Part shown: piece by piece, positions 1,080-40,415 of the stretch
Position numbering within the stretch: the stretch's first letter is position 1
Layout: every line of letters starts with the position of its first letter
From: Acidobacteriota bacterium
GTDB taxonomy: Bacteria; Acidobacteriota; Thermoanaerobaculia; Multivoradales; Multivoraceae
DNA length: 42,561 bases
NCBI GenBank assembly: GCA_021296535.1
Contig: JAGWAG010000027.1
Span: forward strand, 1 to 42,561
Direction: 5' to 3'
Notes under the pieces: generated by a model
Told to the model about the DNA's origin: nothing
The model's database searches: none
The model's input: the letters and a program-made list of their open reading frames with translations, nothing else
Position numbers and translations under genes: made by a program

Positions 1080-2091
1080 TCAGTCTTCGTCGTCCCGGCT
1101 CGCCGCCCGACGCAACAACTTGCGCAGGTCGCGCTCCATCCGGGGCAGGCGGTCGAGCACCGCCTGAATACGCAACTGCTGCGTCTTCGGCCGAGCCGGG
1201 TCGCCGAAGAGTATTGCGCCCTCCGGCACGTCCCGGTAGGCCACCGTCGTGCCGCCGAGTACCGCGCCGTCGCCGATTACGATGCCGTCCGCGACGCCTG
1301 CGCCGCCGGCGAGCACGACGCCGCTGCCGATTTTCGCTCGGCCGGCGATCCTCACCGTTGGCACGACCAGGGTGTGCTCGCCGATCGTCACGTTGTGGGC
1401 GATATGGACGAGGTCGCCGATTTTGCAGCCGCGCCCGATCACCGTCGCGTCGAGAGCGGCACGGTCGATCGTGACCTGGGAGCCGATCTCGACGTCATCG
1501 CCGATCTCGACCGTGCCGACCTGGGGGATCTTCACGTGGCGGCCGCCGCGCTGCAGATACCCGTAGCCGTCGCAGCCGATCACGGTGCCGCCGTGGACCG
1601 TAACGCGCGCACCGACCGTCACGTCCTGGAAACAGGATGCAGTCGGGGCCGATCCGGCTGCGCCGGCCGACGCAGGAGTTCGCGTGGAGCACGGAGCGGT
1701 CGCCGATCTCGGCCTCGTCGCGCACCGTGACGCCTGGACCGATGACCACGTCGGCGCCTATCGAGGCGTTTGCGGAGACAACGGCGGTCGGATGAACTCC
1801 CGGCGCTTCGGACCGGCGCTCGCGGTCGATGTGGCGGAGCACGACGACGAAAGCGGCGAACGGATCCTCGACGACGATCTGGTGAGCCGAAAGACTGCTT
1901 GTCGCCAAGGGTACGAACAGCGCGCCGGCCCGCGTGTCCGTGGCCCGCAGCGTCCGCTCATCCTTGGCGAAGGCCAACTGGTCGGGGCCGGCCTGCTCCA
2001 GGGAGGCGACCGAGCCGTGGAGTTCGGACGTGACCCCGTCTTCCGCGAGCAGGTCGCGGACCTCGTCGAGCGTCTTCTCGAGTCGCGACAC
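1080..2091 (-). pseudogene. lpxD: UDP-3-O-acylglucosamine N-acyltransferase LpxD, split by a +1 frameshift
   Basis: LpxD adds the second 3-hydroxyacyl chain to UDP-acyl-glucosamine in lipid A synthesis. The N-terminal part reads from a GTG at 2091 (VSRLEKTLDEV, then [19 protein letters not shown]), followed by left-handed beta-helix hexapeptides. At about 1627-1631 the frame breaks after [10 protein letters not shown] and resumes one base over as [17 protein letters not shown]. Removing one C restores a continuous protein of about 336 residues, the normal LpxD length. The catalytic-histidine segment VHIAHNV and the TIDRAALD repeat are intact downstream. The start is 22 bp after the amidohydrolase stop. 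Because lipid A genes are usually essential, a sequencing or assembly insertion is as likely as a true pseudogene. The identity of the gene is secure; the state of the frame is not. Confidence 0.85.
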
Positions 2092-2113
2092 GCGGGATAG
2101 CCGAACGCGGGGT

Positions 2114-5197: not shown

Positions 5198-6394
5198 TCA
5201 GGCGTGCTCCCGGACCACCGAGTTGTTCAGCTCGACGCCGAGGCCGGGACCTTCCGGTACCGCTATCGAACCGTTCTCGAAGCGCTCCGGCGGCTCGACG
5301 AGGTCGCCGCGCCACATGGCTTCGCCCCACTGCATTTCCAGGATCTCGAAGTTGGCTAAGCCCGCGCAGAGTTGGGCGGAGGCCGCCGTGGCGACGGGGC
5401 CGCTCGGGTTGTGGGGAGACACGGCGACGCCGTCGAGTTCGGCGACTGCTGCGATCTTGCGCGCCTCGTGGAGCCCGCCGCAGTGCTTCACGTCGGGCAT
5501 GATCACGTCGACCGCCTGTTCCCGGCAGAGGGGACCGAAGCCCTCGATCCCGAACAGGAACTCGCCGCCGGCCATCGATCGCCTTCGTTGCGGCGACATC
5601 GGTCGGAGCGACCGGCTCCTCGTACCAGGCCAGGTTCTGGGGTTCGAGCCGCTTGGCGACGTCGATCGCCAGCTCGACGTCGAAGAAGCTGTGGCAGTCG
5701 ATCAGGATGTCGACATCCGGCCCGATTGCGGCCCGGATCGCCTCGACGCAGGCAACGCCGAGGTCGGCGGCCGCGGCGACTTCGGACGCGGGAGCGTCGA
5801 GCGCCGGAAAGCCGTCGAACGGGGCGGCCTTGATCGCCGTGAAGCCCTCTGCGACCGCGGCGCGGGCATTGGCCGCGAAGGCGGCGGGAGTGCGTTCCCG
5901 GGTGACGCGGTTGATGTTCGCGTAGGCCGGCGACCGCCGGCCAACTGGTGGACGGGTGCGTCCACGGCCTTGCCGACCAGGTCCCAGAGCGCCTGCTCGA
6001 TGGCGGAGAAGGCGGTCGTCTCGAAGATGCTGCCGGCCGCCGCCCGCGCGCGCCCGGCGGCCCGGTAGGCCTCGATGTCGAAGGGCGAGCGGCCGCGGGC
6101 GACCTCGAAGGCCTCATTCAGAGCCGGCAGCTCGCGGCGGTTGCCGACCGAGCACTCGCCGAGTCCGGCAAGGCCGCGGTTCGTGCGCAGATGAACGAAC
6201 ATCCAGGCCGTGCGTTCGCTCACCCGCACGGAGGTGAGCGCCAACTCCTCGACGCGCAGTGACCGTTCGGCCGCTCCAGACGGCTGGGTAGCGAGCACGG
6301 GGGAGGCGGCGACGGGCAGTGATGCCGCCGCGCCGGCCGCCGCAACCATCTGCCGCCGCGTGAGCTGCGTCGCCGTTGTCCGGCCTTTCTTCAT
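5198..6394 (-). pseudogene. Mandelate racemase / muconate lactonizing-type enolase-superfamily protein, broken by two frame faults
   Basis: Acid-sugar dehydratase or racemase type of the enolase superfamily, read in three frames. Frame 1 (from ATG 6394) has a twin-arginine signal (TRRQMVAAAGAAASLP), which suggests export, and runs to LAGGRR. Near 5930 the frame shifts, consistent with one lost base, to AYANINRVTRERTPAAF, FTAIKAAPFDGF (general-base Lys), DILIDCHSFFD and WYEEPVAP (metal ligands). Near 5575-5580 a second fault, about 20 nt short, leads to AGGEFLFGIEGFGPL and SPHNPSGPVATAAS, ending at 5198. HNPxGP and KAAPFD resemble galactonate-type dehydratases. With all parts joined the length, about 395 residues, fits the family. 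Two faults plus missing residues favour a true pseudogene more than in the other split genes here, but an assembly error is not excluded. Confidence 0.75.
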
Positions 6395-6484: not shown

Positions 6485-9400
6485 TTACCAGTTGTAGGTC
6501 AGCGAAGCGACCACGTTCCGGCCCGGACTCGAATAGAGCAGGAGGCTCGGATCGTTCGCCTGGCGACCGCGCACATGCCAGGACTCGAAGTACGCCTCGT
6601 CCGTCGCATTGAGCACACCGACCCGCAGCTTCATGTCGGCCGGCAGAGCGAAGAACGCGACGACATCGACGACCTGGTAGCCATCCGGGATGTGCTCGCC
6701 CTCGGCGACCTTCCCGGGGTCGCGGTCGTCCACGATGCGGATCGATCCGTCGAGGCCCCACTTCGCCGAGTCGGCCAGGTAGCGCAGTCCCACCACGCCC
6801 TCGTTGGGAGCGATCGAGGCCAGCGGAACGTCGATCTCTCCGGTCGTGTCGTGGCCGTCGATATGGGCGTAGGCCGCGCGGAGCAGGACGTTGTCGCCGA
6901 GGCGCGACTCGAGCCGGAACTCGACGCCGTCGATCTCGACTTCCGTCAAGTTCACGTTCTGGAACTCGACCACGTTGAGTTGCCGGTTGAAGCCGGCGGT
7001 CTGGAACTCGATGAAGTCGTCGTAGTGGTTGCGGAAGCCGCCGATGCTCCAGCTCGTGCCGCCGGCGCTCCAGCGCAGGCCGAGTTCGAAGTTGTCGCTG
7101 ATCTCGGGGTCGAGCCCGGGGTTGGCGAGCGTCTGGTAGCCGCCGGCCAGGTTGGTGAATCCGGTGTTGATCGAGCTGTACGGCGGCGCCCGGAAGCCGG
7201 CCGCGTACTGGGCGGTCAGCGTGGTCGTTCTGTGGAGTTCGAACGCCGCACCGAGCTTGGGCGAGACGGCGTCCGCGTCCAGACTGGCCACCGGCAGACC
7301 GCCGGCGGCGATGTAGACCGCGTCGCCCGGGTCGGCGTCGACGATGAAGCGGTCGTAGCGGACCCCGGGGATCAGGGTGATCCGGTTCCAGCGCAGTTCG
7401 GCCTGGGCGTAGGCGCCGGTCTCTTCCGTGTCGGTCTGCGGGAAGTACTTGCTCGGGAAGACGAGCTGGGTGGGCACGACCCTGCCGGAAAGATCGTGCT
7501 CGATCCGGTCGCGCAGCATGTCGAACTCGTCGGCGAGGAAACTGCCGCCGAAATGAAACGCACTGCTGAACGAGTCCCCGGTTCCTGTCTCGACCAGGCC
7601 GTTGACATCGGCGCTGAAGGTCGTCTGTTCGAAGGTCAGGTTGCCGTTCCGGTTCGTCTCGAGCGGCGGCCCGAAGGCGGCGAAGAGGCGGTGTTCCCTG
7701 ACATTCTGCGCCGTGTCCACGCTCTGGGTGTTGATCCGCCAGCTCCACTGGTCGACGGTGCCGCGGCTCGTGATGACCTGTTCCAGGGAAGCCCGGTTGC
7801 GATCCTGGGTGTCCTCCGCCAGGACCTCGAAGTTCGTGATCGTGAACGGGCCGAGGCGGCTGGTGCCGAGGGCGGAGATGACCTCCGTTTCCGCATCGGT
7901 GGTGTTCAGCTCGAAGGTGGCGCGCAGGGTGTTGCCGGTCGAGATGTCGTAAGCCGCCTTGCCCAGGGCCTGCAGCCGCTCCCGTTCCTGCGGGTTCGGT
8001 TGGTCCCTGTCCATGCCGGTGCCGCCGGTCTGCCCGGCGTTGTCGAGCTCATCGCTCCGTCCGGTGCTGACGAAGAGGGACGCGCGCGCCGCCTCGCCGC
8101 CGCCAGCGGCCGTGAGGTTCAGGTTGCGGTCGCGGCTGCGGCCGTCGAACCCGGTCTTCAAACCGAAGTGGTGGTTGCCGTTGCCGAGGTAGTCCGAGGG
8201 GTTCTTCGTGATCAGTGAGATCACGCCGCCGACCGCGTCGCTGCCGTAGAGCGCCGAGCCGGCGCTGCGGACGATCTCGGCGGACTTGAGCGTGTCGATG
8301 TCGATCGCCTGCTGGTGGACGTTGAAGGGCCCGAAGTCGAACTGCTCGGCAGTCGGCACGCCGTCGACCTGGGTCAGCACCCGATTGCCGCCGATGCCGC
8401 GGATGTTGAAGCCGTTGAGACCCAGACGGGTTGCGTCTCCCTCCACGTAGACGCCCGGCTCGTACTTGACCAGGTCCGCGACGTCCTCGTACAGGTGGTC
8501 CGCGATGTCCTCGTCGGTGACGATCGAGACGTGGCCGGGTGTCTCGCGCAGCGAGGCCGGGACGTGAGCAGCGGTAACGGTGACTTCGTCGAGGAACGTG
8601 GCCTCGTCGGTACTCACTTCTTCACTGTCCGCCTGAGAATCGCCGGCCGCCGCCTCACCGCGTACCGCGTGCAGCAGCTTGCCGGTGCGGAGCAGGAACG
8701 CGTCGCCGGCGGGGACAACGCCGGTGAGGTACTCGTCTACCTCGACGCGGCTCTTTGCCAGGACCTCGCCGCCCCCGGGGCCGGCGCTCAGGACATCGGT
8801 CGCGCCCTTCTCGCCGAAGAAGAAGATCCGGTCGCCGGCGGCGATGGGAGTCACCCAGGCCGGCTGCGAGAGCCTCTGCTGCCAGTGGGACTTGCCGTTC
8901 TCAGGGTCGATGCACTGCGCGACGCCGGCCGCGTTGGCCCAGTAGATGCAGTCGCCGGCCAGAACGGGCGAGGCGAAGTGGCTTGTCGACTCGGAGTGCC
9001 AGACGATGTCGTCCTCGCCGAGTTCCCCTCTGGCGCCGCGCCGAACGGCGAAGTTGGCCGGCCGCTCCGATCCGGAGATGACGACCACCTCGTCCGTGAT
9101 CAGGGGCGACTGGGTCGTGTTCGACTTCACGCCCGGTATCCACCAGAGCTTCTCGCCGGTGGCCGCGTCGTAGCCCTCGACCGAACCGTTCGAGCTGACG
9201 ACGATCTCCCGACGATCGGGCGACAGGGTTGGCGTGGTCCAGGAGACGCCCGGTTCCCGCTCCACCTTCCACCGGTCTTCGCCGGTGGCTCGGTCCACGG
9301 CGAGAAGATAGGAGTACGTCTTGCGGGCCAACAGGACCACGGCGTGGTCGTCCGTCAGCAGCACCGAGCCGCCGACGCCGTGATTGCCGGCGAAGCTGCC

Positions 9401-10939
9401 GTGGTCGTCGGAGAGGTTCCGGTGCCAGAGGCGGTTCCCGTCGTGGTTCGTGGCGAACAGGTCGCCGGTGCCGAAGAAGAGCGTGATCCGGTCGGCGTCG
9501 ATCGCAGGGGTCGGGGCGGCACGGGCCGTGTACTGGTTGTAGGGCAGGCGCTCGGAGGCCGGCCAGCTTTGGCGCCAGAGTTCCTCGCCGTCCGCGACCC
9601 GAATCGCGGTGAGCCAGAGCGTGTCCTTGGCGTCCTCGCCATCGGCGGCCACCGAGGTCACGTAGGCAACACCGTTCCGGACGACAGGGCTCGAGTGACC
9701 GAACGCCGGCAGCTCGGCGGTCCAGCCGGGTTGGTCCCAGGCGAGCGGCAGGGCGGAGCCTTCGGCGATGCTGGCGCCACCGTCGCGGAAGGTGGCCCAC
9801 TCGGTTCCGTGATTGGCTGACGGCGCCCCGGCGGGGGTCCACGATTCGTCCGCGATCTGGCCGTCTTCGATCTGCAGGTCGGAGAGTGCATGTCGCTCGA
9901 CTGAGCTCAGGTGCCCGGTGCGGTTCGCACCGGCAATCGCCAGCAGCGATTCGCCGTCGCTCACCAGGCGGTGGAAGAAGCGTCGCTCGTGGAGGTCCCC
10001 GGCGTGGTTCCAGGACTCGTCGCCGCTGCGGATGCTGTAGATGCGGCCGTCGGCCTGGCTCACGAGGAGAACCCCGTTCACCGTGACCGCGTCGGCGCCG
10101 AAGCCGTTCAGGCTGCCGGACGCCGGCAGGTCGGGCCCCGATGCCCAGGTGTCGGTGGCGGGATCGTAGATGTCGACTCGGCGGGTCGTGTCGCCGTTGT
10201 CGTCGATCCCGCCCAGCACCCAGAGCTTGCCGTCGAGTCCCACCGCGGTGTTGGCACGGACGCCGACCGGGGTCTCCGTCAGTACGCTCCACTCGCCGAT
10301 GGAATCGTCATCGAGCGTCGTCAGGTCGAGCGCGAAGACCGTTCGTTCCCAAAGGGGATCGGAGGCGGAGCCGCGCAGCTGCCAGCCGCCCGCGACGACG
10401 AGGAGATCGTTGACCACGGCGAGATCGTGCGAGGAGCGGCCGGACGGCAGGGCCATCAGCCGCTGCCAGCGGTTCTCTTCCGGCAGGAAGCGGGCCGCGC
10501 TCTTCACGGAATGGAGTTCGCCGGGCTCGCGCCTCGGGTTGTTCGCGCGCATTCCTCCGACCCGGTAGATGGCGCCGTCGTGCTCGACCAGGGCAGTGCC
10601 CTGGAGCGGCGGACCCGGCGGCAAAGCGAGCCATCCGGGCGAAGAGCTTCCAGCGGCGGACTCGAGTGGGTAACGCAGGAAGAGCTGACTCAGGTTCTCG
10701 AACGAATGAACGTGCTGCGTGCCGATGTGACCGCCGTACACGTAGAGCGAATCGCCCTCCAGAGCCGCGCCGAAGCTCGAGATGGCAAGCGGCAGATCGG
10801 GGACTGCCTGGTGGTGGGCGCGGTTGGAGGAGTCCACGTTCTGAGCAACGGCTAGTGGCGTCATGGCGATTCCCATGAGGGTGGCCGCCAAGGTTCCGGC
10901 GGTGCGGCCGCGGCCGCGGTTGGGCTTGATGGTGAGCAT
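6485..10939 (-). CDS. Kelch propeller - PQQ-like propeller - TonB-dependent receptor fusion protein
   Basis: One unbroken 1484-codon frame. Residues 1-33 are a signal peptide ending in ...PLAVAQ. About 45-360 is a Kelch-type beta-propeller with GG blade ends (LYVYGGHIG, IYRVGGM, LVVAGGW, LWVLGGIDDNG). About 405-770 is a PQQ-like (BamB/quinoprotein-repeat) propeller with the blade pattern xxATGExLWxx (DRATGEDRWKV, DAATGEKLWWI). A TonB-box-like DEVTVTAA starts near residue 782, followed by a plug (GGVISLITKNPSDY) and a CirA/heme-receptor-like 22-strand barrel of normal size, ending in YNW as outer-membrane barrels do. The propeller lacks the vicinal Cys pair and the Glu/Asn/Asp set of quinoprotein enzymes, so it is probably a binding or scaffold domain, not a dehydrogenase. 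By topology both propellers should be periplasmic. The gene follows the PQQ alcohol dehydrogenase operon by 150 bp, with its own promoter. The ligand is unknown. Confidence 0.9.
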   Translation of the reverse strand: MLTIKPNRGRGRTAGTLAATLMGIAMTPLAVAQNVDSSNRAHHQAVPDLPLAISSFGAALEGDSLYVYGGHIGTQHVHSFENLSQLFLRYPLESAAGSSSPGWLALPPGPPLQGTALVEHDGAIYRVGGMRANNPRREPGELHSVKSAARFLPEENRWQRLMALPSGRSSHDLAVVNDLLVVAGGWQLRGSASDPLWERTVFALDLTTLDDDSIGEWSVLTETPVGVRANTAVGLDGKLWVLGGIDDNGDTTRRVDIYDPATDTWASGPDLPASGSLNGFGADAVTVNGVLLVSQADGRIYSIRSGDESWNHAGDLHERRFFHRLVSDGESLLAIAGANRTGHLSSVERHALSDLQIEDGQIADESWTPAGAPSANHGTEWATFRDGGASIAEGSALPLAWDQPGWTAELPAFGHSSPVVRNGVAYVTSVAADGEDAKDTLWLTAIRVADGEELWRQSWPASERLPYNQYTARAAPTPAIDADRITLFFGTGDLFATNHDGNRLWHRNLSDDHGSFAGNHGVGGSVLLTDDHAVVLLARKTYSYLLAVDRATGEDRWKVEREPGVSWTTPTLSPDRREIVVSSNGSVEGYDAATGEKLWWIPGVKSNTTQSPLITDEVVVISGSERPANFAVRRGARGELGEDDIVWHSESTSHFASPVLAGDCIYWANAAGVAQCIDPENGKSHWQQRLSQPAWVTPIAAGDRIFFFGEKGATDVLSAGPGGGEVLAKSRVEVDEYLTGVVPAGDAFLLRTGKLLHAVRGEAAAGDSQADSEEVSTDEATFLDEVTVTAAHVPASLRETPGHVSIVTDEDIADHLYEDVADLVKYEPGVYVEGDATRLGLNGFNIRGIGGNRVLTQVDGVPTAEQFDFGPFNVHQQAIDIDTLKSAEIVRSAGSALYGSDAVGGVISLITKNPSDYLGNGNHHFGLKTGFDGRSRDRNLNLTAAGGGEAARASLFVSTGRSDELDNAGQTGGTGMDRDQPNPQERERLQALGKAAYDISTGNTLRATFELNTTDAETEVISALGTSRLGPFTITNFEVLAEDTQDRNRASLEQVITSRGTVDQWSWRINTQSVDTAQNVREHRLFAAFGPPLETNRNGNLTFEQTTFSADVNGLVETGTGDSFSSAFHFGGSFLADEFDMLRDRIEHDLSGRVVPTQLVFPSKYFPQTDTEETGAYAQAELRWNRITLIPGVRYDRFIVDADPGDAVYIAAGGLPVASLDADAVSPKLGAAFELHRTTTLTAQYAAGFRAPPYSSINTGFTNLAGGYQTLANPGLDPEISDNFELGLRWSAGGTSWSIGGFRNHYDDFIEFQTAGFNRQLNVVEFQNVNLTEVEIDGVEFRLESRLGDNVLLRAAYAHIDGHDTTGEIDVPLASIAPNEGVVGLRYLADSAKWGLDGSIRIVDDRDPGKVAEGEHIPDGYQVVDVVAFFALPADMKLRVGVLNATDEAYFESWHVRGRQANDPSLLLYSSPGRNVVASLTYNW

Positions 10940-11089: not shown

Positions 11090-11587
11090 CTAACTGCAGT
11101 CCATGCTGTTCGAACGCACGTACGCGATCACCTGCCAGATCGTGTCTTCCGGGATCTTGCCGTCGAACGGCAGCATCTCCGTGTCGGGCACGCCCTGGGT
11201 AATCACGCGGTAGAGATCGGCGTCCGTGTTGCCGTGGTCCCAGTTGCAGTCGAAGAGATTCGGTGCGTCCTTGGTGACGCCCGGCGTGGTCGAGTGGCAG
11301 TAGCCGGTGCAGACGGCGCGGAACATGCGCCGGCCGGCGGTGATCGCCGCGGGATCGTCGAGATAGGCGGCGACGGGAGAAGGACTCGCGGCAGGCTCGG
11401 CGGGCGGCGCTTCGTTGACGGTTGCCGGCTGCGCCGCGGCTGGGGCCGGTGCCTCCGACGCGGCCGGAGTCTCGGGCAGCTCGGGCGCCGGTCCTCCGCC
11501 GGTTGCACAGGCGGCCAGCAGAAGGGGCAGCGCGATCGTCGCGTGCCTGGCAAAGCGGGTCGACTCAAGGCGTCTTCGGGTGGTCAT
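11090..11587 (-). CDS. c-type cytochrome lipoprotein, electron acceptor of the PQQ dehydrogenase (XoxG/MxaG-like role)
   Basis: A 165-residue protein. The start at ATG 11587 gives MTTRRRLE and a lipoprotein signal with lipobox LLLAAC, then an Ala/Pro/Glu-rich linker (about residues 30-75), then a single cytochrome c domain. The heme site reads VCTGYCHS, which is CX3CH and not the usual CXXCH. The likely axial Met is in GVPDTEMLPFDG, and IWQVIAYVRS is the typical C-terminal helix. As the third gene of the dehydrogenase operon (37 bp after the binding protein) it probably takes electrons from PQQH2 in the periplasm, anchored to a membrane by lipid. The five-residue heme spacing is directly visible in the DNA and is not a frame artefact. 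Role inferred from context. Confidence 0.82.
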   Translation of the reverse strand: MTTRRRLESTRFARHATIALPLLLAACATGGGPAPELPETPAASEAPAPAAAQPATVNEAPPAEPAASPSPVAAYLDDPAAITAGRRMFRAVCTGYCHSTTPGVTKDAPNLFDCNWDHGNTDADLYRVITQGVPDTEMLPFDGKIPEDTIWQVIAYVRSNSMDCS

Positions 11588-11624
11588 GGACAAGGTGTCG
11601 GCTCCCTCGGCTCTACTGGAGCTC

Positions 11625-12443
11625 TTACTGGGCGCCCTCGCCGAGCGCGCGAATCGCGGCCGGCGAGGACACGGTGGGGAAGGGTTCGGTTCGGAAGATG
11701 CCGTAGCGGTCGGCCAGACGTTGCAGCGTGCCGTCGCGACGCAGCTCCTCGAGCATCTGCTCGATCTCGGGAGCAAGGCTGTCGCCGGACCGCATCGCGG
11801 CGTGCTCGTTGAAACGGAGCCCGGGAGGCGGCTCGAAGACGCGCACGGGCTCTTTCTGCAGTCGCCCCAGCGCCGGTCCCCAGATGAGTGCGGCGGTTGC
11901 CCGGCCGTCGTCCACGGCCGCGGCCACGTCCGCTGCGGTGGGTAGCGAGGTCCAGTCGAGCCCTGCCCATTCGGCCGCGAAATGCCCGAGCGACTGCAGG
12001 CGAACCGCTACCCGGTGGCCGGCTGCGACCTCCGGCAAGGCGGTCCATTCGAGACGGTCCATCGGCGGCATGTAGATTTCGAAAGCGGCCGCGTAGTACG
12101 GCGGGCTGAGGTCGATTGCCGCGGCCAGCCGCCCCAGCGCGAGCTGTCCCGGCACGGAGGGCACGAGGTCGCAAACGCCGTCCAGGAGTTCGTCGAAGGG
12201 CAGGTCCGTATCGTCGATCTCGGAGTAGGGCGGTGCGTTCGGACGCCATACCGGCACGAAGTTGCGCCCAAGGCGGTTTGCCGCCTCACGGAACAGGTCG
12301 TGGTCGAAGCCGGAGGCGTTGGCGCGATGCGCGCGCGGCAGATCGTCCTCGAGCAGGCACACGCGCAGGTCCTCCGCCTGGACGGGGACGGCTGCCCAGA
12401 GGAGGATCGAGAGTACGCCGGCCGGCGGCGCCATTCGTGTCAC
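11625..12443 (-). CDS. Periplasmic substrate-binding-like protein associated with quinoprotein dehydrogenase (MxaJ/XoxJ-like)
   Basis: A 272-residue family-3 solute-binding fold with a signal peptide (LSILLWAAVPVQA) and a mature start EDLRVCLLEDDLPRAHR. The motif GFDHDLFREAANRLG is typical of MxaJ/XoxJ proteins, which are thought to help maturation or activation of PQQ dehydrogenases rather than transport. The GTG at 12443 overlaps the dehydrogenase stop by 4 nt (GTGA), which argues for translational coupling and adds an Arg to the signal peptide; ATG 12434 is an alternative start. No ABC permease or ATPase is nearby, which again favours an accessory role. It ends 37 bp before the cytochrome gene. 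Confidence 0.8.
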   Translation of the reverse strand: MTRMAPPAGVLSILLWAAVPVQAEDLRVCLLEDDLPRAHRANASGFDHDLFREAANRLGRNFVPVWRPNAPPYSEIDDTDLPFDELLDGVCDLVPSVPGQLALGRLAAAIDLSPPYYAAAFEIYMPPMDRLEWTALPEVAAGHRVAVRLQSLGHFAAEWAGLDWTSLPTAADVAAAVDDGRATAALIWGPALGRLQKEPVRVFEPPPGLRFNEHAAMRSGDSLAPEIEQMLEELRRDGTLQRLADRYGIFRTEPFPTVSSPAAIRALGEGAQ

Positions 12444-14242
12444 TGCGCGAGTTCGAACACGAGCAGGACGCTGCCTTCCGGCAGGGACGGCGCCGTGCCA
12501 ACCGTGGTCTGGACGATGCCGCCGCCGCCGGAGCCGACGGCGAGGTAGGTCCGGCCTTCGTACTCGTAGGCGATCGGATGGCTGCGGATGCCGGAGCCGG
12601 TCTGGTAGCGCCACACCTCCTCGCCGGTCTCGGCGTCGAAACCGAGGAGGTGGCCGCTGGCGTTGCCCGTGACGACCAGGCCGCCGGCGGTGCTGAGCAC
12701 ACCGGCGAGCATCGGCACCGGATCCCGGTACGTCCACTTCGTCTCGCCGGTGCTCACGTCGATGGCCGACAGGTGGCCGTAGGACTTGCCTTCCGCGGTA
12801 TCGGTCGGGATCGGCTCGCCGCCGAAGAAGGGAATCCCCTCGACGAAGACGACGACGCCCTTGCGGAACATCATGCAGCTCTCGATCGTCGGCACGTAGG
12901 CGAGACCGGTTTCCGGGCTGTAGGCGCCGGCGTAGGCGGCGTTGTTGCCGCCGGCGAGGCCGGGGCAGACGCGCTGAGTCGGCTCCTCGGTCGGTTTCAT
13001 CGCGGGGTTGACGACCGGGCGGCCGTTCTCGTCCAGCGTCGCCCAGTTCAACTGGTGGACGTACTGGCTGGCATGCAGGAAGCTGCCGTCGCGGCGGTCG
13101 AGCACGTAGAAGTAGCCGTTCCGATTCGCCTGAACGAGGGCGGGAATGGTCTGTTCGTTGACCTGGACGTCGACCAGCCAGACCTCGGAGTTGCCGTCGT
13201 AGTCCCAAACGTCGTGGGGCGTGAACTGGAAGTACCACTTGCGCTCCCCGGTCTCGATGTCGACCGCCAACACGCTGTCGCTGTAGAGGTTGTCGCCGGC
13301 CCGTGTGTCGCCGCTCCAGTCGGGAGACGGGTTGCCGGTGGTCCAGAACAGGGTCTTCGTCGCCGGGTCGTAGCTGCCGGTCGCCCAGGTGGCGGCGCCG
13401 CCCGTCTTGTACGATTCGCCGGCCCAGGTCTCGACTCCGGCCTCGCCCGTGTCCGGCACCGTGTGGTGGCGCCAGAGGAGCTCGCCGGTCTCCAGGTCGT
13501 AGCCGTCGAAGAAGCCCCGGACTCCGTACTCGCCGCCGCCGATGCCGATGACCACCACGCCCTCCGCGATGAGCGGGGCCGACGTGATGGAGAAGCCCTT
13601 GGCGTAGGGAATGACCTCAATATCCCAGGCGAGTTCGCCTGTCTTGCGGTTGAAGGCCAGCAGACGGGCGTCCAGGGTGCCCATCACGACGAGATCGCCG
13701 GAGATGCCGACGCCGCGGTTCACCGGCCCGCAGCAGATCCGCAGGTCGGAGGGGTTCTCGTGGTCGTAGCGCCAGAGCAGGCTCCCGTCTCCCGCGTCGT
13801 AGGCGAGCAGGCGGTTCATCGACGAGGTCAGGTAGAGGACCCCGTCGTAGACTACGGGGGAGGATTCGAGCTGGCCGGCGACGCCGGTCTGGGCGATCCA
13901 GGCGAGACGGAGGTTGGAGACGCTCTCCGGCGTCAGCTCGGTGATCGGAGAGTGGCGCCAGCTTGCGTAGTTGCCGCCGTAGTGGAGCCAGGACTCCCGC
14001 GTCGGGGCCGCTTCGAGCAGCGCCTGCTCGACGGGTCCCGCGCCGTCGCCCACCTCGGTCGCCGCCGGCCAGTGGTTCTGGGGTGGCGCGGCCACGCCTT
14101 CCTCCTGGGCAGCGAGCGGGATCGCCACGGCGGCGAGGATGGCCATCGCGCAGGTCGCGGCGCGCCATCGCCGGGTTCCTGTCCGAATCTTCGAGGTCCC
14201 GGCATGTGCTGTTCCTTGAAGCGGCGTGGCTCGCATCGACAA
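12440..14242 (-). CDS. PQQ-dependent alcohol dehydrogenase with lanthanide-type active site (XoxF/PedH-like)
   Basis: A 600-residue periplasmic quinoprotein that oxidises alcohols with PQQ. A signal peptide precedes IPLAAQEEG. Eight-bladed propeller repeats follow (ETGELLWRHH, ETGERKWYFQ, ETGEEVWRYQ). Active-site marks are the vicinal disulfide ICCGPVNRG (Cys170-171), Glu238 in GGGEYGVRG, Asn304 in TGNPSPD, and catalytic Asp347 in PHDVWDYD. Asp349, two residues after the catalytic Asp, matches the extra acidic ligand of lanthanide-dependent XoxF/PedH enzymes; calcium MxaF enzymes have Ala there. Spacing between these residues fits methanol dehydrogenases. An AGGAGG Shine-Dalgarno stands 10 nt before the ATG at 14242. 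It heads the operon with the binding protein and the cytochrome. The alcohol is not known. Confidence 0.9.
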   Translation of the reverse strand: MSMRATPLQGTAHAGTSKIRTGTRRWRAATCAMAILAAVAIPLAAQEEGVAAPPQNHWPAATEVGDGAGPVEQALLEAAPTRESWLHYGGNYASWRHSPITELTPESVSNLRLAWIAQTGVAGQLESSPVVYDGVLYLTSSMNRLLAYDAGDGSLLWRYDHENPSDLRICCGPVNRGVGISGDLVVMGTLDARLLAFNRKTGELAWDIEVIPYAKGFSITSAPLIAEGVVVIGIGGGEYGVRGFFDGYDLETGELLWRHHTVPDTGEAGVETWAGESYKTGGAATWATGSYDPATKTLFWTTGNPSPDWSGDTRAGDNLYSDSVLAVDIETGERKWYFQFTPHDVWDYDGNSEVWLVDVQVNEQTIPALVQANRNGYFYVLDRRDGSFLHASQYVHQLNWATLDENGRPVVNPAMKPTEEPTQRVCPGLAGGNNAAYAGAYSPETGLAYVPTIESCMMFRKGVVVFVEGIPFFGGEPIPTDTAEGKSYGHLSAIDVSTGETKWTYRDPVPMLAGVLSTAGGLVVTGNASGHLLGFDAETGEEVWRYQTGSGIRSHPIAYEYEGRTYLAVGSGGGGIVQTTVGTAPSLPEGSVLLVFELAQ

Positions 14243-27597: not shown

Positions 27598-29604
27598 TCA
27601 GGCCGGAAGCCGGTAGGCGATCAACTCGAACGGCGCGCCACGCCCGCCGAGCGCGAACACCACGTACTGCCGACCCCGATGCAGGAAGGTGATCGGACTG
27701 CCGTCGGTGTGTGCCGGCAGCTCGATCTCGCCGACAAGTTCGCCGGTCGCCTTGTCGAACGCCCGCAGCGCCGGGGTTTCGATGCGCCAGTCGTCGCGCC
27801 CCGACCCCTCGGCTGTGGCCTCCCGGTCGATTCCGCGGAGGGCGAGCGACCGGCCGGCGGTCACGAACAGCAGCGTCTTCGTCGCCACGACGTGGCCGCG
27901 GGCGCCCGAACCGAGCGCCGGCAGGTCGAGCGCGGCCAGGTCCGGGTGGCGCCGCGGGCCGTAGCCCAGGGGCACGGTCCAGGCGATCTCGCCGCGGTTC
28001 AAATCGTAGGCGGTGACCCGTGAGTAGGGCGGCTTGACCAGGGGCAGGTCGCGGGGGCCGCGGACATCGCTGTTGATGCTGCCGACGTAGTCGAAGGACG
28101 ACCGGCTCGCGTCCGGCTTGCGGAGCGTGTTGACCACGGGCCAGGTGAAGGACGGCACGTAGAGCATTCCGGTCTCCGGGTCGAAGGCGCCACCGGGCCA
28201 GCTCGCGCCGCCGCCGTAGCCGGGCATCAGAAACGTGCCGCGTTTCGTGGGCGGCGTGAAGATCGGCCCGTACTGGTACTGGGAGAGGATCGCCATCGCT
28301 TCGGCGCGAAGTTCCGGCGTGAAGTCGATCAGATCGTTCGGGCCGATGCCCTGGCGTTCAAAGGCCGGCGGCCTGGTGGGGAAGGGCTGGGTCGGCGACG
28401 TCCGCTCGCCGACGATGCCGGTCTGCGGCACTTCGCGTTCCAGGATCGGCCACACGTCTTCACCTGTTCGGGCGTCGAAGACGTAGAGGAAGCCCTGCTT
28501 GGAGAGCTGCATCGCCGCGCGGATCGTGCGGCCCTCGACCTCGATGTCGCCGATGATCGCCGGCGTCGGCAGGTCGTAGTCCCACAGGCCGTGGTGGACC
28601 GTCTGGAAGTGCCAGTGCCGCTCACCGGTCTCGCAGTCGACCGCGACGAGCGACTCGGCGTAGAGGTTGTCGCCGAGGCGGTGTCCGCCGTACCAGTCGT
28701 TGGTCGGCGTGCCGAACGGCAGGTAGGCGAGGCCGAGTTCCGGGTCCGCGCTCATCAGGGTCCATACGTTCGTGTTGCCGCTGACCTTCCACGAACCGTT
28801 CTCCCAGGTATCGCGCCCGGGCTCCCCTTCCTGCGGGACGGAGTGAAAGGTCCAGAGCTGCTCCCCGGTGCGAACGTCGAATCCGCGGACGTCCCCCGGC
28901 GGCGCCTCCGGCGCGCGCGGACCGTCCGATATGGAAGAACCGACGATCACCACGTCCCGGCACAGCGTGACCGGCGAACTCACGCTGTAGACCCGGCGCG
29001 ACACCTCCCGGTGCAGACCGAGGGTCAGGTCGACTCTGCCGCCGTCTCCGAACGACGCGATCGGTTCGCCGCTCAGCGTGTCCACCGCGCGCAGGAAGGA
29101 GTCTCCGCCGGCCCAGACCAGCCGGCCTCCCTCGCCGGGCAGGTCTGGGTCCTTCCAGTACGCGGCGCCCCGGTGCGTGAAGCCGAGATTCGTCGGCCGA
29201 CCGTGAACATAGGCCTTCGGATCGTAGGTCCAGGAGCTCTTTCCCTGCTCGATATCGATCGCCGCGATCTGCCCGTAGCCGGTCGTCACATAGAGCCGGT
29301 CACCCACCTTGATCGGAATCGCCTCATGGTTCCGCGGCACCATGCGCCGCCCGCTCGTTCCGCCATCCCCGGTCATCAACTCGTTGTCCGGCGACGACCA
29401 TCGCCAGGCGACCTCGAGCTCTCCGAAGTTGTCCCGATCGATCTGCCCAAGCGGCGCATACCGCTGACTCGCGTTGTTGCCCGTGGTGACCAGCCAGTCC
29501 GTGTCCAAAGGCTCCTGGGCCAACGCGGCCACCGTCGCCCCGATCGCCATCGCAAGCCCGACTGGCAGCCACCTCAGACCCCGACAACACCTCCGGCCAA
29601 GCAT
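27598..29604 (-). CDS. PQQ-dependent dehydrogenase, glucose-dehydrogenase-like
   Basis: A 668-residue quinoprotein of the membrane glucose dehydrogenase branch, but with a signal peptide (VGLAMAIGATVAALAQ) instead of five membrane helices, so it is periplasmic and soluble. The start ATG 29604 was chosen because the signal follows at once. Propeller marks are NNASQRYAPLGQID, GDVRGFDVRTGEQLWTFH, PGRDTWENGSWKVSGNTNVW, and the catalytic-Asp segment TVHHGLWDYD; the family usually has HHDLWD, and here the first Asp is Gly while the WD Asp remains. LSKQGFLYVFD supplies the PQQ-contacting Lys. It lacks the CxxCH of quinohemoproteins and the vicinal Cys pair of methanol dehydrogenases. The substrate is probably a sugar or polyol. 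No partner gene is adjacent. Confidence 0.88.
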   Translation of the reverse strand: MLGRRCCRGLRWLPVGLAMAIGATVAALAQEPLDTDWLVTTGNNASQRYAPLGQIDRDNFGELEVAWRWSSPDNELMTGDGGTSGRRMVPRNHEAIPIKVGDRLYVTTGYGQIAAIDIEQGKSSWTYDPKAYVHGRPTNLGFTHRGAAYWKDPDLPGEGGRLVWAGGDSFLRAVDTLSGEPIASFGDGGRVDLTLGLHREVSRRVYSVSSPVTLCRDVVIVGSSISDGPRAPEAPPGDVRGFDVRTGEQLWTFHSVPQEGEPGRDTWENGSWKVSGNTNVWTLMSADPELGLAYLPFGTPTNDWYGGHRLGDNLYAESLVAVDCETGERHWHFQTVHHGLWDYDLPTPAIIGDIEVEGRTIRAAMQLSKQGFLYVFDARTGEDVWPILEREVPQTGIVGERTSPTQPFPTRPPAFERQGIGPNDLIDFTPELRAEAMAILSQYQYGPIFTPPTKRGTFLMPGYGGGASWPGGAFDPETGMLYVPSFTWPVVNTLRKPDASRSSFDYVGSINSDVRGPRDLPLVKPPYSRVTAYDLNRGEIAWTVPLGYGPRRHPDLAALDLPALGSGARGHVVATKTLLFVTAGRSLALRGIDREATAEGSGRDDWRIETPALRAFDKATGELVGEIELPAHTDGSPITFLHRGRQYVVFALGGRGAPFELIAYRLPA

Positions 29605-29754
29605 CGGCGAACAGTAGCAGCGGCGAGACCGACAAAAGTGCGGCCGGCGCCCGCGGCGGAAGTGGTCGACGCCACTCGGCAACCACGTCTGGAAGCTCAC
29701 CGCACCGCCAATCCGGCGCAGTAAACGCCACGCCGACGTCGTCCAGCCTGCGCA

Positions 29755-29916
29755 GGGCCACAAGGGGGAGGGGTCCCAGCGGGCTCGGAGTGAGCGACGC
29801 CCGACCACCCAACGCCATGCGACGGCCTACCGGAGCGAACGTAGTGAAGTGCGCGCCAACCTCCCTTCATCCGAGAAAGCGCGCACGGCCGCCGGGACCC
29901 CTCCCCTTTGTGGCCC
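29755..29916. repeat. 162-bp element bounded by 23-bp inverted repeats
   Basis: Arms at 29755-29777 and 29894-29916 are inverted copies with one mismatch (they begin GGGCCACAA and end GAGGGGTCCC). Inside, GTGCGCGC (29849-29856) and GCGCGCAC (29879-29886) form a second perfect inverted pair. There is no coding sequence. It could be a small non-autonomous mobile element or an extragenic palindromic repeat. The rest of the 343-bp gap 29605-29947 shows nothing I can name. Confidence 0.6.
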
Positions 29917-32530: not shown

Positions 32531-34132
32531 TTACTCGATGGCCTCCAGCGGCACGGCACTGCGCAGCACGAGGCCGCGCCGGGCTACTCGGACTTCGGGT
32601 GCGACAGCGGTGCCCGACCGTCCGCCGGTGTAGTAGGTCAGCACGTGTTGATGCCGCAGGTCTTCTTCGATCTGTTTGAAGACACTTTGGATCCGTTGCG
32701 CCCAGGGCGGGTTGTCGGTGGACAGGTTCACGTAGAACAGCCGTCCGCCCGTTTGGCGGCTGATCGTTTCGAGCCGTTTCCGGTGATGTCGCCGTTTCAA
32801 CTCCCTCTGGATGTGGATCTGTCCGCCACGCCGACTCCTGGTCCTCGCGGTCGGTCGGTCCAGTTCGATGAAGTAGATCGGAAGACCAAGGCGCTCTGCG
32901 AAGTCGGCGGATTGCGTTGGGGTGGTTCGACTGTGCTGGTCGACGCCGTCCGTAATCACGACCAGCGCGCGGCGACCGGGTTCTCGACCGTACTGGAGCA
33001 GGGAGAACAGGATCCCGTCGTTCAGCGCCGTTCCCAGTCGCGGTATGAGCGATCGCACGCGGGTGCCGAGCAGTGGCTTGTTGCCAGTCAGCGGTTGGGT
33101 CAGACGCACCTCGCCGGAGAAATCGACGACGAAAGCCCGATCGCCCGGCGACAGGGCTGCGTCGATGAAGCTGGCGGACACGTCTCTAACCTCGTGCCAG
33201 ATGGGCAACATGCTGTCTGACATGTCGATGGCCAGACCAAGAACCAGGGGGACGTCGTGGGCAGTGTGGAGGTTCTGCACCGGGCGCTTTCTACTGTCCT
33301 CGCGGATCTCGAAATCCCCCGGCTTCAGGCCGCGAACGGGGTTCCCGTCCTTGTCGCTAACCAGCAACTGGAGCTGGATCAACTCGATGTCGATCTCGTC
33401 CTGGTACTCGGCGCCCTGGAGGAGCTGGGCGTCCTCCAACTGGCGACCGCCCTTGAGCGTCGCCGTGACGCGGACGAAGTCTTCCACGGAGGTGTGCTCA
33501 ATCAGGGCGTCGACCAGGATCGTGCGGGGGGCGCCCGGTGCCGCGTCGTCGCCAAAGTTGCGCAGAGCCTCGACCAGACGCTCGCCGCGATAGAACGCGA
33601 CGCGCTCGAGTGTGGCGGACCGGGGCAGCGAAACATCCACCTCGATTCGGAGTGCGTCGTACCCGTTCACCTCCACGCGGCGCATTGTGGCGATGTTGAC
33701 GCCAAAGGGAACGTCCGGCTGGTTGAGGGTCATCCTGTCCGTGCCGAGGACGTTGCCCAGGGCGTCGTATCCCCGGACTTCGAGGATCTGTTCGCGAGGC
33801 GGATGAGCCAGTTCGATGTGGGTCTGGTAGGGCGGCTTCCTTGTGCGCTCCACCGGGTTGGCATCGAGGACGAAGTCGACTGCTCTGATCAGCGGGTGAA
33901 TAGGCAGGGTCTGGATCTCGACTTTGCCGCTGTACGGTTCGCGGTATCCGCGGTCCGGCGGCACGATGTGGATCATCTTCCGCGTCGCGGCCGCCGGGGT
34001 TGCGGCTCCCTCCCCGGCGGAGCTGTCCTGCGCCTGTGCGGGTGCGTGGAACGAGACGCCGAGTATCAGCGCGCACGTGGTGGAAACCGTCGCCTTCGCG
34101 GCGTGGGTTCGAAGCGGCGCGGCCATCCTCAC
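32531..34132 (-). CDS. Secreted vWA-domain protein, VWFA-related Acidobacterial type (paralog A)
   Basis: A 533-residue exported protein, the last and shortest of five tandem paralogs. A signal peptide ends ...HAPAQAQ. An Ig-like beta domain (about residues 50-140: MIHIVPPDRGYREPYSG, KPPYQTHIELAHPPREQ) is followed by a second beta region, then the vWA domain (about 250-500) starting EIDIELIQLQLLVSDKDG and GLKPGDFEIRED. The metal-ion adhesion site is complete: IDMSDSM, GTALNDG and VITDGVD. It ends RSAVPLEAIE like its relatives. It lacks the N-terminal domain of about 150 residues present in paralogs B-E. The start is GTG 34132, with AGAGGAG about 8 nt upstream; ATG 34126 is possible. Probably periplasmic or extracellular protein binding; the partner is unknown. 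Confidence 0.87.
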   Translation of the reverse strand: MRMAAPLRTHAAKATVSTTCALILGVSFHAPAQAQDSSAGEGAATPAAATRKMIHIVPPDRGYREPYSGKVEIQTLPIHPLIRAVDFVLDANPVERTRKPPYQTHIELAHPPREQILEVRGYDALGNVLGTDRMTLNQPDVPFGVNIATMRRVEVNGYDALRIEVDVSLPRSATLERVAFYRGERLVEALRNFGDDAAPGAPRTILVDALIEHTSVEDFVRVTATLKGGRQLEDAQLLQGAEYQDEIDIELIQLQLLVSDKDGNPVRGLKPGDFEIREDSRKRPVQNLHTAHDVPLVLGLAIDMSDSMLPIWHEVRDVSASFIDAALSPGDRAFVVDFSGEVRLTQPLTGNKPLLGTRVRSLIPRLGTALNDGILFSLLQYGREPGRRALVVITDGVDQHSRTTPTQSADFAERLGLPIYFIELDRPTARTRSRRGGQIHIQRELKRRHHRKRLETISRQTGGRLFYVNLSTDNPPWAQRIQSVFKQIEEDLRHQHVLTYYTGGRSGTAVAPEVRVARRGLVLRSAVPLEAIE

Positions 34133-34153
34133 TTGCCCATCTCCTCTGCCGCC

Positions 34154-36187
34154 CTACTCGATCGCCTCGAGAGGCACCGCGCTCCGCAGTTTCAGATCTC
34201 GCCTGGTCACCCGGATCTCCGGCTCGACCGGTACTCCGCGAGGTTGGTTGGTGTAGTAGGTGAGCACATGCTGGTGGCGCAGGTCCTCTTCGATCCGGTC
34301 GAAGATCTGCTCGATGGGGTTGCCCCACCAGGGCGCGTCGCCGCGGAGCGGGAGGCGGAGGAGGCGGCCGCCCGTCTGCTCGGCGATGCGCTGGAGTCGT
34401 CTTCGGTCACGCGGTTGGAACACACCGTCGGCGTCTCCCGGATGGGATGAATCCAGCTCGATGAAGTAGATCGGCAGGCCCAGACGCTCCGCGAACTCGC
34501 TGGACTGTTCGGGTCGGGAACGGCTGTGTTGGTCGGCACCGTCGGTGATAACGACCAGCGCCCGTCGACCGGGTTCGCTGCGGTACTGGAGGAGAGAGAA
34601 GAGGAGCCCGTCGTTCAGCGCCGTGCCGCCCATCGGGACGAGGTAGTCGAGTCGGTCGGCCAGCAACTGGCGGTCCCCCGTCAGCGGCTGGGCCAGACGG
34701 ATCGAGTCGTCGAAGTCGACCAGGAAGGCCCGGTCGCCCGGCGTGACCGCGGTCTCGAGGAAGCTCCGCGCGATGAACTTCAGGCGGCTCCAGACGGGCA
34801 GCATGCTGTCCGACGAGTCGATCGCGAGACCGAGGATCAGGGGCACGTCGTAGGCGGTGTGAAGCGCCACCGCGGGCCGCTTCCGGCCGTTGTCGCGGAT
34901 CTCGAAGTCCTCTGGCGAGAGCCCGCTCACCGGGTTCCCTTCGCGGTCCGTAACGAGAACCTGGAACTGGACCAACTGGACGTCGATCTCGCCCTGATAC
35001 TCGGCCCCCTGGATGAGTTTGGCGTCTTCTCGTTCGCGGCCGTCGGCCAGCTTCGCCACGACGCGGATGAAGTCGTCCGCCCGGGCGTCCTCGATCGACG
35101 CCTCGACGAGAGTCGTGCGGGCGGCGCCGTCCGGGGACTCTTCGTCAAAGTCGCGTACCGCTTCCACGAGAGACTCGCTGCGGTAGAACTCGACCCGTTC
35201 GAGGTTCGCCGAGTGCGGCAGCGACACGGATGCCGCCACGCGGATCGGGGCGCCCATGTCCGCCTGCAACCCGCCGATCTCCCCGATGCGGACCGCGAAC
35301 GGCCTGTCGATCCGGTTGAGCACGAACTCGTCCCGGCCCAGGTACTCGTCGTCTTCGGCGTAGGCCAGGACCTCGAGCGTCTGACGGCGCGGTGGGTTGG
35401 CCAGGCGGATGCGAGTCTGGAACGGGCGCTTCCGGGCCCGCCCGGTGCGCCTGCCGTCCAGGCTGAACTCGACCTTGACGGTCCGCGGGTCGATGATCAA
35501 GGTCTGGATCTCGACCCGTCCGGTGAGCAGCTCGCCGTACCCGCGCTCGGGCGGCACGATCCGGATGGCCGCGGGGGAGGCCGGCAGGTCGTCAGCGTTC
35601 GGTGTCGGTCCGGGTCGCTCGTAGACCGTGTCGATCTGAAGCGAAGGCAGGCCGAGGGGTTCCACGTCGGTCCACCGCACGAGCCACTCGCCGTCCCGAA
35701 GGAAGGTCTCCACCTGCCGACCGTCCGCGGCGACCATCTCGATCGTGAGCCTTTCGCCGGCCTCGAGGATGCTCGCCGTGAGACCGCGGCCGAGGCGGTG
35801 CTCCTTGCCGTCGATTGGGAGCATCAGCGTGCCGCCGCGGCTGTCGAGGATGACGAGTCGGTTCTCGACAGTCCTGATCATGACGGTGGCGTACTTGTCG
35901 GCGACGCTCTCTGCGACCACGCGCATCGACGAGGCCTGTTCCGGCGCCAGACCGAGGCTCCGGGCCTTTTGGACCGGATGTTCGCTGAACCCGTCGTTCC
36001 TGATCCATGGACCGAGGAGTTCGGAGAAGGCTTGATCCTGGCCGATGGCGGGACCGCCGGTTCCGGGTTCACTGGGAACCTGGCCCGGGCCGGGCGCCGG
36101 GAGGGCCAGCGCCAGAAGCGTCAGCGCCGCCGAGCGGACGCAGTGCGGGCGCCACCATGGGCTCCGGTTGTCTGTGTTCGGGGTCAT
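34154..36187 (-). CDS. Secreted vWA-domain protein, VWFA-related Acidobacterial type (paralog B)
   Basis: A 677-residue exported protein. After a signal peptide (LTLLALALPAPGPGQ), the paralog-specific N-terminal domain (about 55-190) opens with LLGPWIRNDGFSEHPVQK and has a lipocalin-like run of strands (LVILDSRGGTLMLPIDG, VETFLRDGEWLVRW). An Ig-like domain (about 205-295, IRIVPPERGYGELLTGRVE) and a linking beta domain lead to the vWA domain (about 390-640) with EIDVQLVQFQVLVTDREG, the MIDAS IDSSDSM, GGTALNDG and VITDGAD. The end is RSAVPLEAIE. It stops 21 bp before the start of paralog A. Function unknown. Confidence 0.87.
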   Translation of the reverse strand: MTPNTDNRSPWWRPHCVRSAALTLLALALPAPGPGQVPSEPGTGGPAIGQDQAFSELLGPWIRNDGFSEHPVQKARSLGLAPEQASSMRVVAESVADKYATVMIRTVENRLVILDSRGGTLMLPIDGKEHRLGRGLTASILEAGERLTIEMVAADGRQVETFLRDGEWLVRWTDVEPLGLPSLQIDTVYERPGPTPNADDLPASPAAIRIVPPERGYGELLTGRVEIQTLIIDPRTVKVEFSLDGRRTGRARKRPFQTRIRLANPPRRQTLEVLAYAEDDEYLGRDEFVLNRIDRPFAVRIGEIGGLQADMGAPIRVAASVSLPHSANLERVEFYRSESLVEAVRDFDEESPDGAARTTLVEASIEDARADDFIRVVAKLADGREREDAKLIQGAEYQGEIDVQLVQFQVLVTDREGNPVSGLSPEDFEIRDNGRKRPAVALHTAYDVPLILGLAIDSSDSMLPVWSRLKFIARSFLETAVTPGDRAFLVDFDDSIRLAQPLTGDRQLLADRLDYLVPMGGTALNDGLLFSLLQYRSEPGRRALVVITDGADQHSRSRPEQSSEFAERLGLPIYFIELDSSHPGDADGVFQPRDRRRLQRIAEQTGGRLLRLPLRGDAPWWGNPIEQIFDRIEEDLRHQHVLTYYTNQPRGVPVEPEIRVTRRDLKLRSAVPLEAIE

Positions 36188-36234
36188 GTTGACGTGAGAA
36201 AGTCCAATCGGGCGGACGCTCCGGCCCCCTCTAC

Positions 36235-38310: not shown

Positions 38311-38331
38311 TTGTGATCTCGGGCCGCGGGA

Positions 38332-40395: not shown

Positions 40396-40415
40396 TGGCG
40401 TTCGCCCAGCTCCAA

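Follow-up and report, generated by a model that had tools for sequence, protein, structure and literature searches.

PhuR of Pseudomonas aeruginosa and the related heme/hemoglobin receptors (TIGR01785/TIGR01786) have in common with the receptor described here a plug, a 22-strand barrel, FRAP and NPxL boxes, a tyrosine and a plug histidine. FRAP and NPNL boxes mark heme receptors (PMC6449446), and a histidine and a tyrosine of PhuR have been described as coordinating heme (PMC12670364). Loci that combine a propeller protein with a TonB-dependent transporter, as is the case here, are established in Bacteroides, namely BtuG-BtuB and XusB-XusA (PMC10404256, PMC13142918), and the XusABC iron system also includes a PepSY protein (PMC13142918). 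BtuG and XusB each consist of one seven-bladed propeller; they are surface lipoproteins and are not fused to the transporter. Extra periplasmic domains N-terminal to the TonB box are likewise known, i.e., the signalling domain of FecA, FpvA and HasR, and the carboxypeptidase-like domain of SusC and XusA.

The window analysed here (the whole stretch of 42,561 nucleotides from an Acidobacteriota genome) contains a single open frame on the minus strand (6485-10939), which encodes 1484 amino acids from an ATG start with zero internal stops. A signal peptide, a six-bladed Kelch propeller, an eight-bladed PQQ propeller, a TonB box, a plug and a 22-strand barrel follow one another in this frame (Table 1). 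Pfam matches were far above chance for all four domains (E-values: Kelch_1, 6.5e-19; PQQ_2, 2.2e-25; Plug, 7.2e-23; TonB_dep_Rec barrel, 1.7e-48), and plug (PF07715, 81.6 bits against a cut-off of 23.9) and barrel (PF00593, 167 against 27 bits) occurred in that order. No N-terminal signalling domain of the FecA transducer type was found in the Pfam scan of the frame. Furthermore, the window sequence has zero N, and codon composition was of the coding type along the whole frame, junction bin included (GC3 0.79-0.95). The domain matches and the codon composition ruled out a spurious frame arising from antisense coding in GC-rich DNA.

Table 1 Features of the fused frame and its two neighbours (positions in the window; residues of the fused protein).
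Feature	Position	Strand	Basis
Sec-type signal peptide, residues 1-33, MLTIKPNRGRGRTAGTLAATLMGIAMTPLAVAQ, derived from the propeller gene; no lipobox cysteine	10841..10939	-	Sequence; comparable ones in relatives' propeller genes
Six-bladed Kelch propeller, residues about 47-352	9884..10801	-	Pfam, AlphaFold2, structural matches
Eight-bladed PQQ-like (BamB-type) propeller, residues about 378-758	8666..9808	-	Pfam, AlphaFold2, structural matches
Putative fusion junction, residues 763-783, AAAGDSQADSEEVSTDEATFL, acidic linker retained	8591..8653	-	Comparison with relatives
TonB-box-like DEVTVTAA, residues 784-791	8567..8590	-	Same or similar in relatives' separate receptors
Plug domain, residues 797-906; H875, candidate heme ligand	8222..8551	-	Pfam, alignment
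TonB-dependent receptor barrel, 22 strands, residues 907-1484; FRAP 1249-1252, Y1268, NPGL 1273-1276; C-terminal YNW	6488..8221	-	Pfam, alignment, model
c-type cytochrome gene, upstream, syntenic in the genus	11090..11776	-	Pfam Cytochrome_CBB3
Enolase-superfamily-like gene, downstream, frame broken by 16 and 20 bp deletions	5201..6394	-	Family named by reading

AlphaFold2 modelled residues 34-785 as two propellers with a mean pLDDT of 85.8. The Kelch model matched Kelch domains with Z of 32-34, and the PQQ-like model matched BamB, the eight-bladed periplasmic propeller whose fold it resembles, with Z of about 33. Unlike BamB, the PQQ-like propeller is not a lipoprotein, lies far below the cut-off of the BamB family (TIGR03300, 53.6 against 285.2 bits) and is tied to a receptor rather than BamA. 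The receptor part was modelled as a plug and 22 long strands, with PhuR (8the) as the nearest structure (TM 0.86). The sequence-only reading had proposed that one frame joins a signal peptide, the two propellers, a TonB box and a full-size receptor. Open frame, Pfam and AlphaFold2 bore this out, with plug and barrel both complete, and its ranges for the propellers (45-360 and 405-770) and its place for the TonB box (about 782) were refined to those in Table 1. That reading had named no strand. In a combined model of the PQQ propeller and the receptor, with three relatives only, pLDDT was < 50 across most of the propeller part, and the packing of the propeller on the plug therefore cannot be read from it. 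The propeller structure also matched the mycobacterial Rv3035-FecB (Z 34-35). This match was dropped as an iron lead, because its Z was tied with those of other propellers and the complex has a reported role in envelope assembly (PMC12802301).

The propeller and the receptor were separate genes in all 21 relative loci that have both parts, and in 19 of them the two genes were adjacent on the same strand. The propeller comes first in the genus of the window and in several others, and the receptor comes first elsewhere. A second propeller-receptor fusion was found neither among 149 genomes of the class nor among 396 and 297 sampled genomes of the phylum; the same searches returned many homologues of each half, all unfused. 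With the Kelch part as query, all open frames were <=784 aa except that of the window (1508). On these searches, a stable new architecture spanning a clade was rejected, and a receptor architecture in its own right found no support, since the two parts were always two genes in the relatives examined. The fused frame derives from a conserved gene pair and is so far confined to one genome; an established receptor architecture it is not. A search of a limited set of papers returned no published propeller-TonB-receptor fusion, which proves little.

The propellers themselves are modular. Kelch and PQQ occur in one protein in most relatives, PQQ only in L038 and L056, and Kelch only in L047 and L052, while a different TonB-dependent receptor, PQQ and Kelch are three adjacent genes in genome G414 (L090). 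Given these three- and two-gene forms, the window stands at the far end of a three-, two- and one-gene series, ordered by gene count and not by the order of events. The pairing is not obligate, since congeners carry one part alone: the propeller without a receptor in G006, G015 and G019, and the receptor without a propeller in G004 and G013. Separate adjacent genes for the PQQ-like and Kelch propellers were seen at L090:2672-7744, L086:182-3442 and L087:1084-4313, and the Kelch proteins of these three loci have an extra N-terminal region.

The congeners also allowed the junction to be read. Their propeller C-terminus runs ...HAVRGEP-stop (HAVRGEPAPGE-stop in sister locus L037), and their receptor has its own signal peptide, then an acidic linker, then DATFLDEVTVTA. 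Across the junction the window reads HAVRGEAAAGDSQADSEEVSTDEATFLDEVTVTAA. Compared with relatives, the propeller stop codon, the spacer or intergenic DNA, the receptor start and the receptor signal peptide are gone and the frame is preserved. The junction falls inside the receptor's own acidic N-terminal linker, and about 21 residues separate the last propeller strand from the TonB box. As judged from this comparison, a small deletion has evidently joined the two neighbouring genes into one intact frame in one genome. No exact repeats of at least 15 bases were found at the junction within the window, and no repeats of > 8 bases between the matching junction sites in relatives. There is thus no obvious misjoin, and fusion by a repeat-driven misjoin was rejected.

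Our main reading, to which we assign a probability of about 0.52, is that the frame is an in-frame 'Rosetta' fusion, seen in one genome, that unites the two genes of a conserved heme-uptake module, a double propeller serving as periplasmic partner and a PhuR-type receptor. An assembly artefact, in which two real genes lost approximately 100-300 bp in assembly, is distinctly improbable. The source is a single fragmented assembly (one MAG-like genome in 166 contigs, 86% complete, 3.76 Mb), and the several deletions of 16-20 bp that only the window has, in genes conserved elsewhere, could be errors. However, the window has neither repeats at the junction nor N, the missing DNA is an exact in-frame unit, and sister genomes, too, have lost the lpxD-like and enolase-like genes or parts of them, which fits real erosion.

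Members of the genus share the gene order around the pair, yet the surroundings of the fusion bear marks of decay. Both deletions in the enolase-like gene are absent from all compared relatives, and an LpxD-like gene (1083-2100, minus strand) has a window-specific, frame-breaking deletion of 17 bp at about 1628. Sister loci L037 and L044, which have also lost the receptor, lack the region that matches this gene. The propeller of L044 has an internal deletion, and L030 and L031 are without a propeller. Where congeners have the receptor, L037 holds approximately 530 bp (10305-10835) that read like a remnant of an insertion-element transposase. The genome, at 3.76 Mb, is smaller than those of most congeners (4.2-5.3 Mb), a figure to be taken with its 86% completeness. 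The losses in sister loci and the broken neighbours make erosion a serious rival, even if a somewhat unlikely one: the locus would be decaying, one deletion would by chance have stayed in frame, and the protein would be transitional or a receptor with a passive N-terminal load. Against this, the 1484-codon frame is intact beside a broken neighbour, and the deletion took the receptor signal peptide and spared the TonB box. The polarised changes on the window branch are also mostly synonymous (39 synonymous and 13 non-synonymous in the receptor, 13 and 5 in the propeller), counts that span the time before and after the fusion and show no difference from those of the sister (Fisher p about 0.35-0.38). 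Pairwise dN/dS was 0.16-0.22 for the receptor, and for the propeller 0.18-0.21 against the genus and 0.35 against the closest sister. By these ratios, both halves are apparently under purifying constraint.

The best solved relative of the receptor is PhuR (full-length, E 1.8e-71), and the two align end to end, including the FRAP and NPxL boxes, the tyrosine between them and the plug histidine (F1249-P1252, Y1268, N1273-L1276 and H875 are all present in the window). The FRAP-type box and Tyr1268 were found in 40/40 sequences covering the region, and the plug histidine in 27/39, with other residues in its place in roughly one family member out of three. Relatives' separate receptors have the same TonB box or a similar one, by sequence only. 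Unlike PhuR-type receptors, the fused frame has propellers of about 760 residues in total before its TonB box, and its receptor falls 4 bits short of the NCBIfam cut-off for TIGR01786 (319.4 against 323.75 bits); it may thus be said to work like PhuR, rather than be filed as TIGR01786. The homologue in L039 passes TIGR01786 with 342.4. L039 (499-13030) is a cluster of the heme-uptake type with the propeller, HmuQ, a periplasmic binding protein, an FecCD permease, a heme ABC ATPase, a CbiX-domain protein and two tandem PhuR-like receptors, and both HmuQ (heme-degrading) and the heme ABC ATPase are above curated cut-offs. No heme-uptake genes lie next to the fusion in the window; the genome has one FecCD permease, which is also present in receptor-less congeners. 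By alignment and model alike, the receptor is PhuR-like over its full length, and heme is our best guess for the ligand. We consider other ligands unlikely, be it a ferric siderophore, a corrinoid or a cofactor that would serve the PQQ dehydrogenase encoded a few genes upstream. The genes for PQQ-alcohol dehydrogenase and cytochrome c in the neighbourhood, the non-universal plug histidine and the narrowly missed TIGR01786 cut-off would fit such a ligand, but the resemblance to PhuR extends over the full length, the tyrosine and FRAP-type motif are in every sequence that covers them, L039 carries heme genes, and the PQQ-dehydrogenase neighbourhood was noted only in the genus of the window, except for a PQQ-like gene in L040.

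The topology of the fusion bears on the role of the propellers. As the N-terminus of TonB-dependent receptors is periplasmic, propellers fused to it ahead of the TonB box should be periplasmic too, as had been proposed from the sequence at the outset. This speaks for an acceptor or docking partner in the periplasm, close to the TonB box, and against a surface lid like BtuG or XusB. We consider it quite unlikely that the propeller is normally an extracellular lid that captures substrate for the receptor, the role of BtuG with BtuB and of XusB with XusA, and was misplaced by the fusion. The established Bacteroides pairs are a precedent for such a lid, and PepSY_TM genes adjoin the propeller gene in L048 and L089, recalling the PepSY protein of Xus. 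However, anything fused N-terminally, before the TonB box, must lie in the periplasm, and the two propellers have six and eight blades in place of one with seven. The lipobox of a surface lipoprotein is absent from the window protein and from the Kelch-PQQ relatives whose signal peptides were compared, which have ordinary signal peptides comparable to that of the window; a propeller that is a surface lipoprotein was rejected on this ground. Compared with the N-terminal additions of FecA-like and SusC-like receptors, the propellers are about ten-fold larger than a signalling domain, have an unrelated fold and are fused in one genome.

Nine Kelch residues are near-invariant in linked relatives (H71, H76, R126, R168, H171, R228, R320, H323, and R324), and R168/H171, R228 and R320/H323 occupy equivalent places on three blades, presumably at the rim of the central channel. 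The histidine motif is absent from the Kelch homologue L092, which lies away from such a receptor. In KEAP1, the rim of the central Kelch channel binds acidic peptides. By analogy, an anionic ligand of the Kelch rim, heme propionates included, is conceivable.

In the mechanism we propose, the deletion would have taken out the propeller stop, the spacer, and the start and signal peptide of the receptor, whose TonB box, plug and barrel it spared. The fused chain would then be exported by the propeller's signal peptide and its barrel inserted in the outer membrane, and both propellers would hang in the periplasm on an acidic tether of approximately 20 residues just ahead of the TonB box. On the outer side, the tyrosine of the FRAP/NPxL region and the plug histidine would bind heme, which would enter once TonB pulls the plug. 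The propellers might serve as an acceptor or docking partner built into the chain on the periplasmic side, with heme or its iron passed onward. The analysis establishes the fused frame, its origin from two genes, the family resemblance of the receptor and the lack of a lipobox; the ligand, the periplasmic handover and a functional fused protein are what we infer. The earlier idea that the propellers could capture or hand on the ligand is plausible, and can be sharpened to heme.

The wider value of the finding lies in the conserved gene pair behind the fusion. The propeller partners of TonB-dependent transporters known so far are outside the cell, whereas one tied before the TonB box is inside. 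This suggests that the propeller partner, of which little is known, acts within the cell envelope beside the receptor. It is possible, though we would sooner doubt it, that Acidobacteriota have an undescribed class of periplasmic receiving partner, in which a Kelch and PQQ-like double propeller accepts heme or iron on the plug side of the receptor, and that channel and acceptor are one chain in the species of the window. If the fused protein works, its topology hints at what a conserved and apparently undescribed Acidobacteriota gene pair does, and it offers a ready test system for the fate of heme on the receptor's periplasmic side. If it is non-functional, it is a clear example of a multi-domain frame born from gene erosion.

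Other genes of the window include a PQQ-dependent alcohol dehydrogenase (12440-14242, minus strand) above the TIGR03075 cut-off, with the motif TPHDVWDYDGN, whose second Asp we take to be a mark of lanthanide-dependent enzymes. It is followed by genes for a solute-binding protein and a cytochrome c, and a second PQQ dehydrogenase is found at 27598-29808. Furthermore, five consecutive open frames of 533-691 aa (32531-42267, minus strand), each with VWA_2 in its C-terminal half, form a tandem array of related genes.
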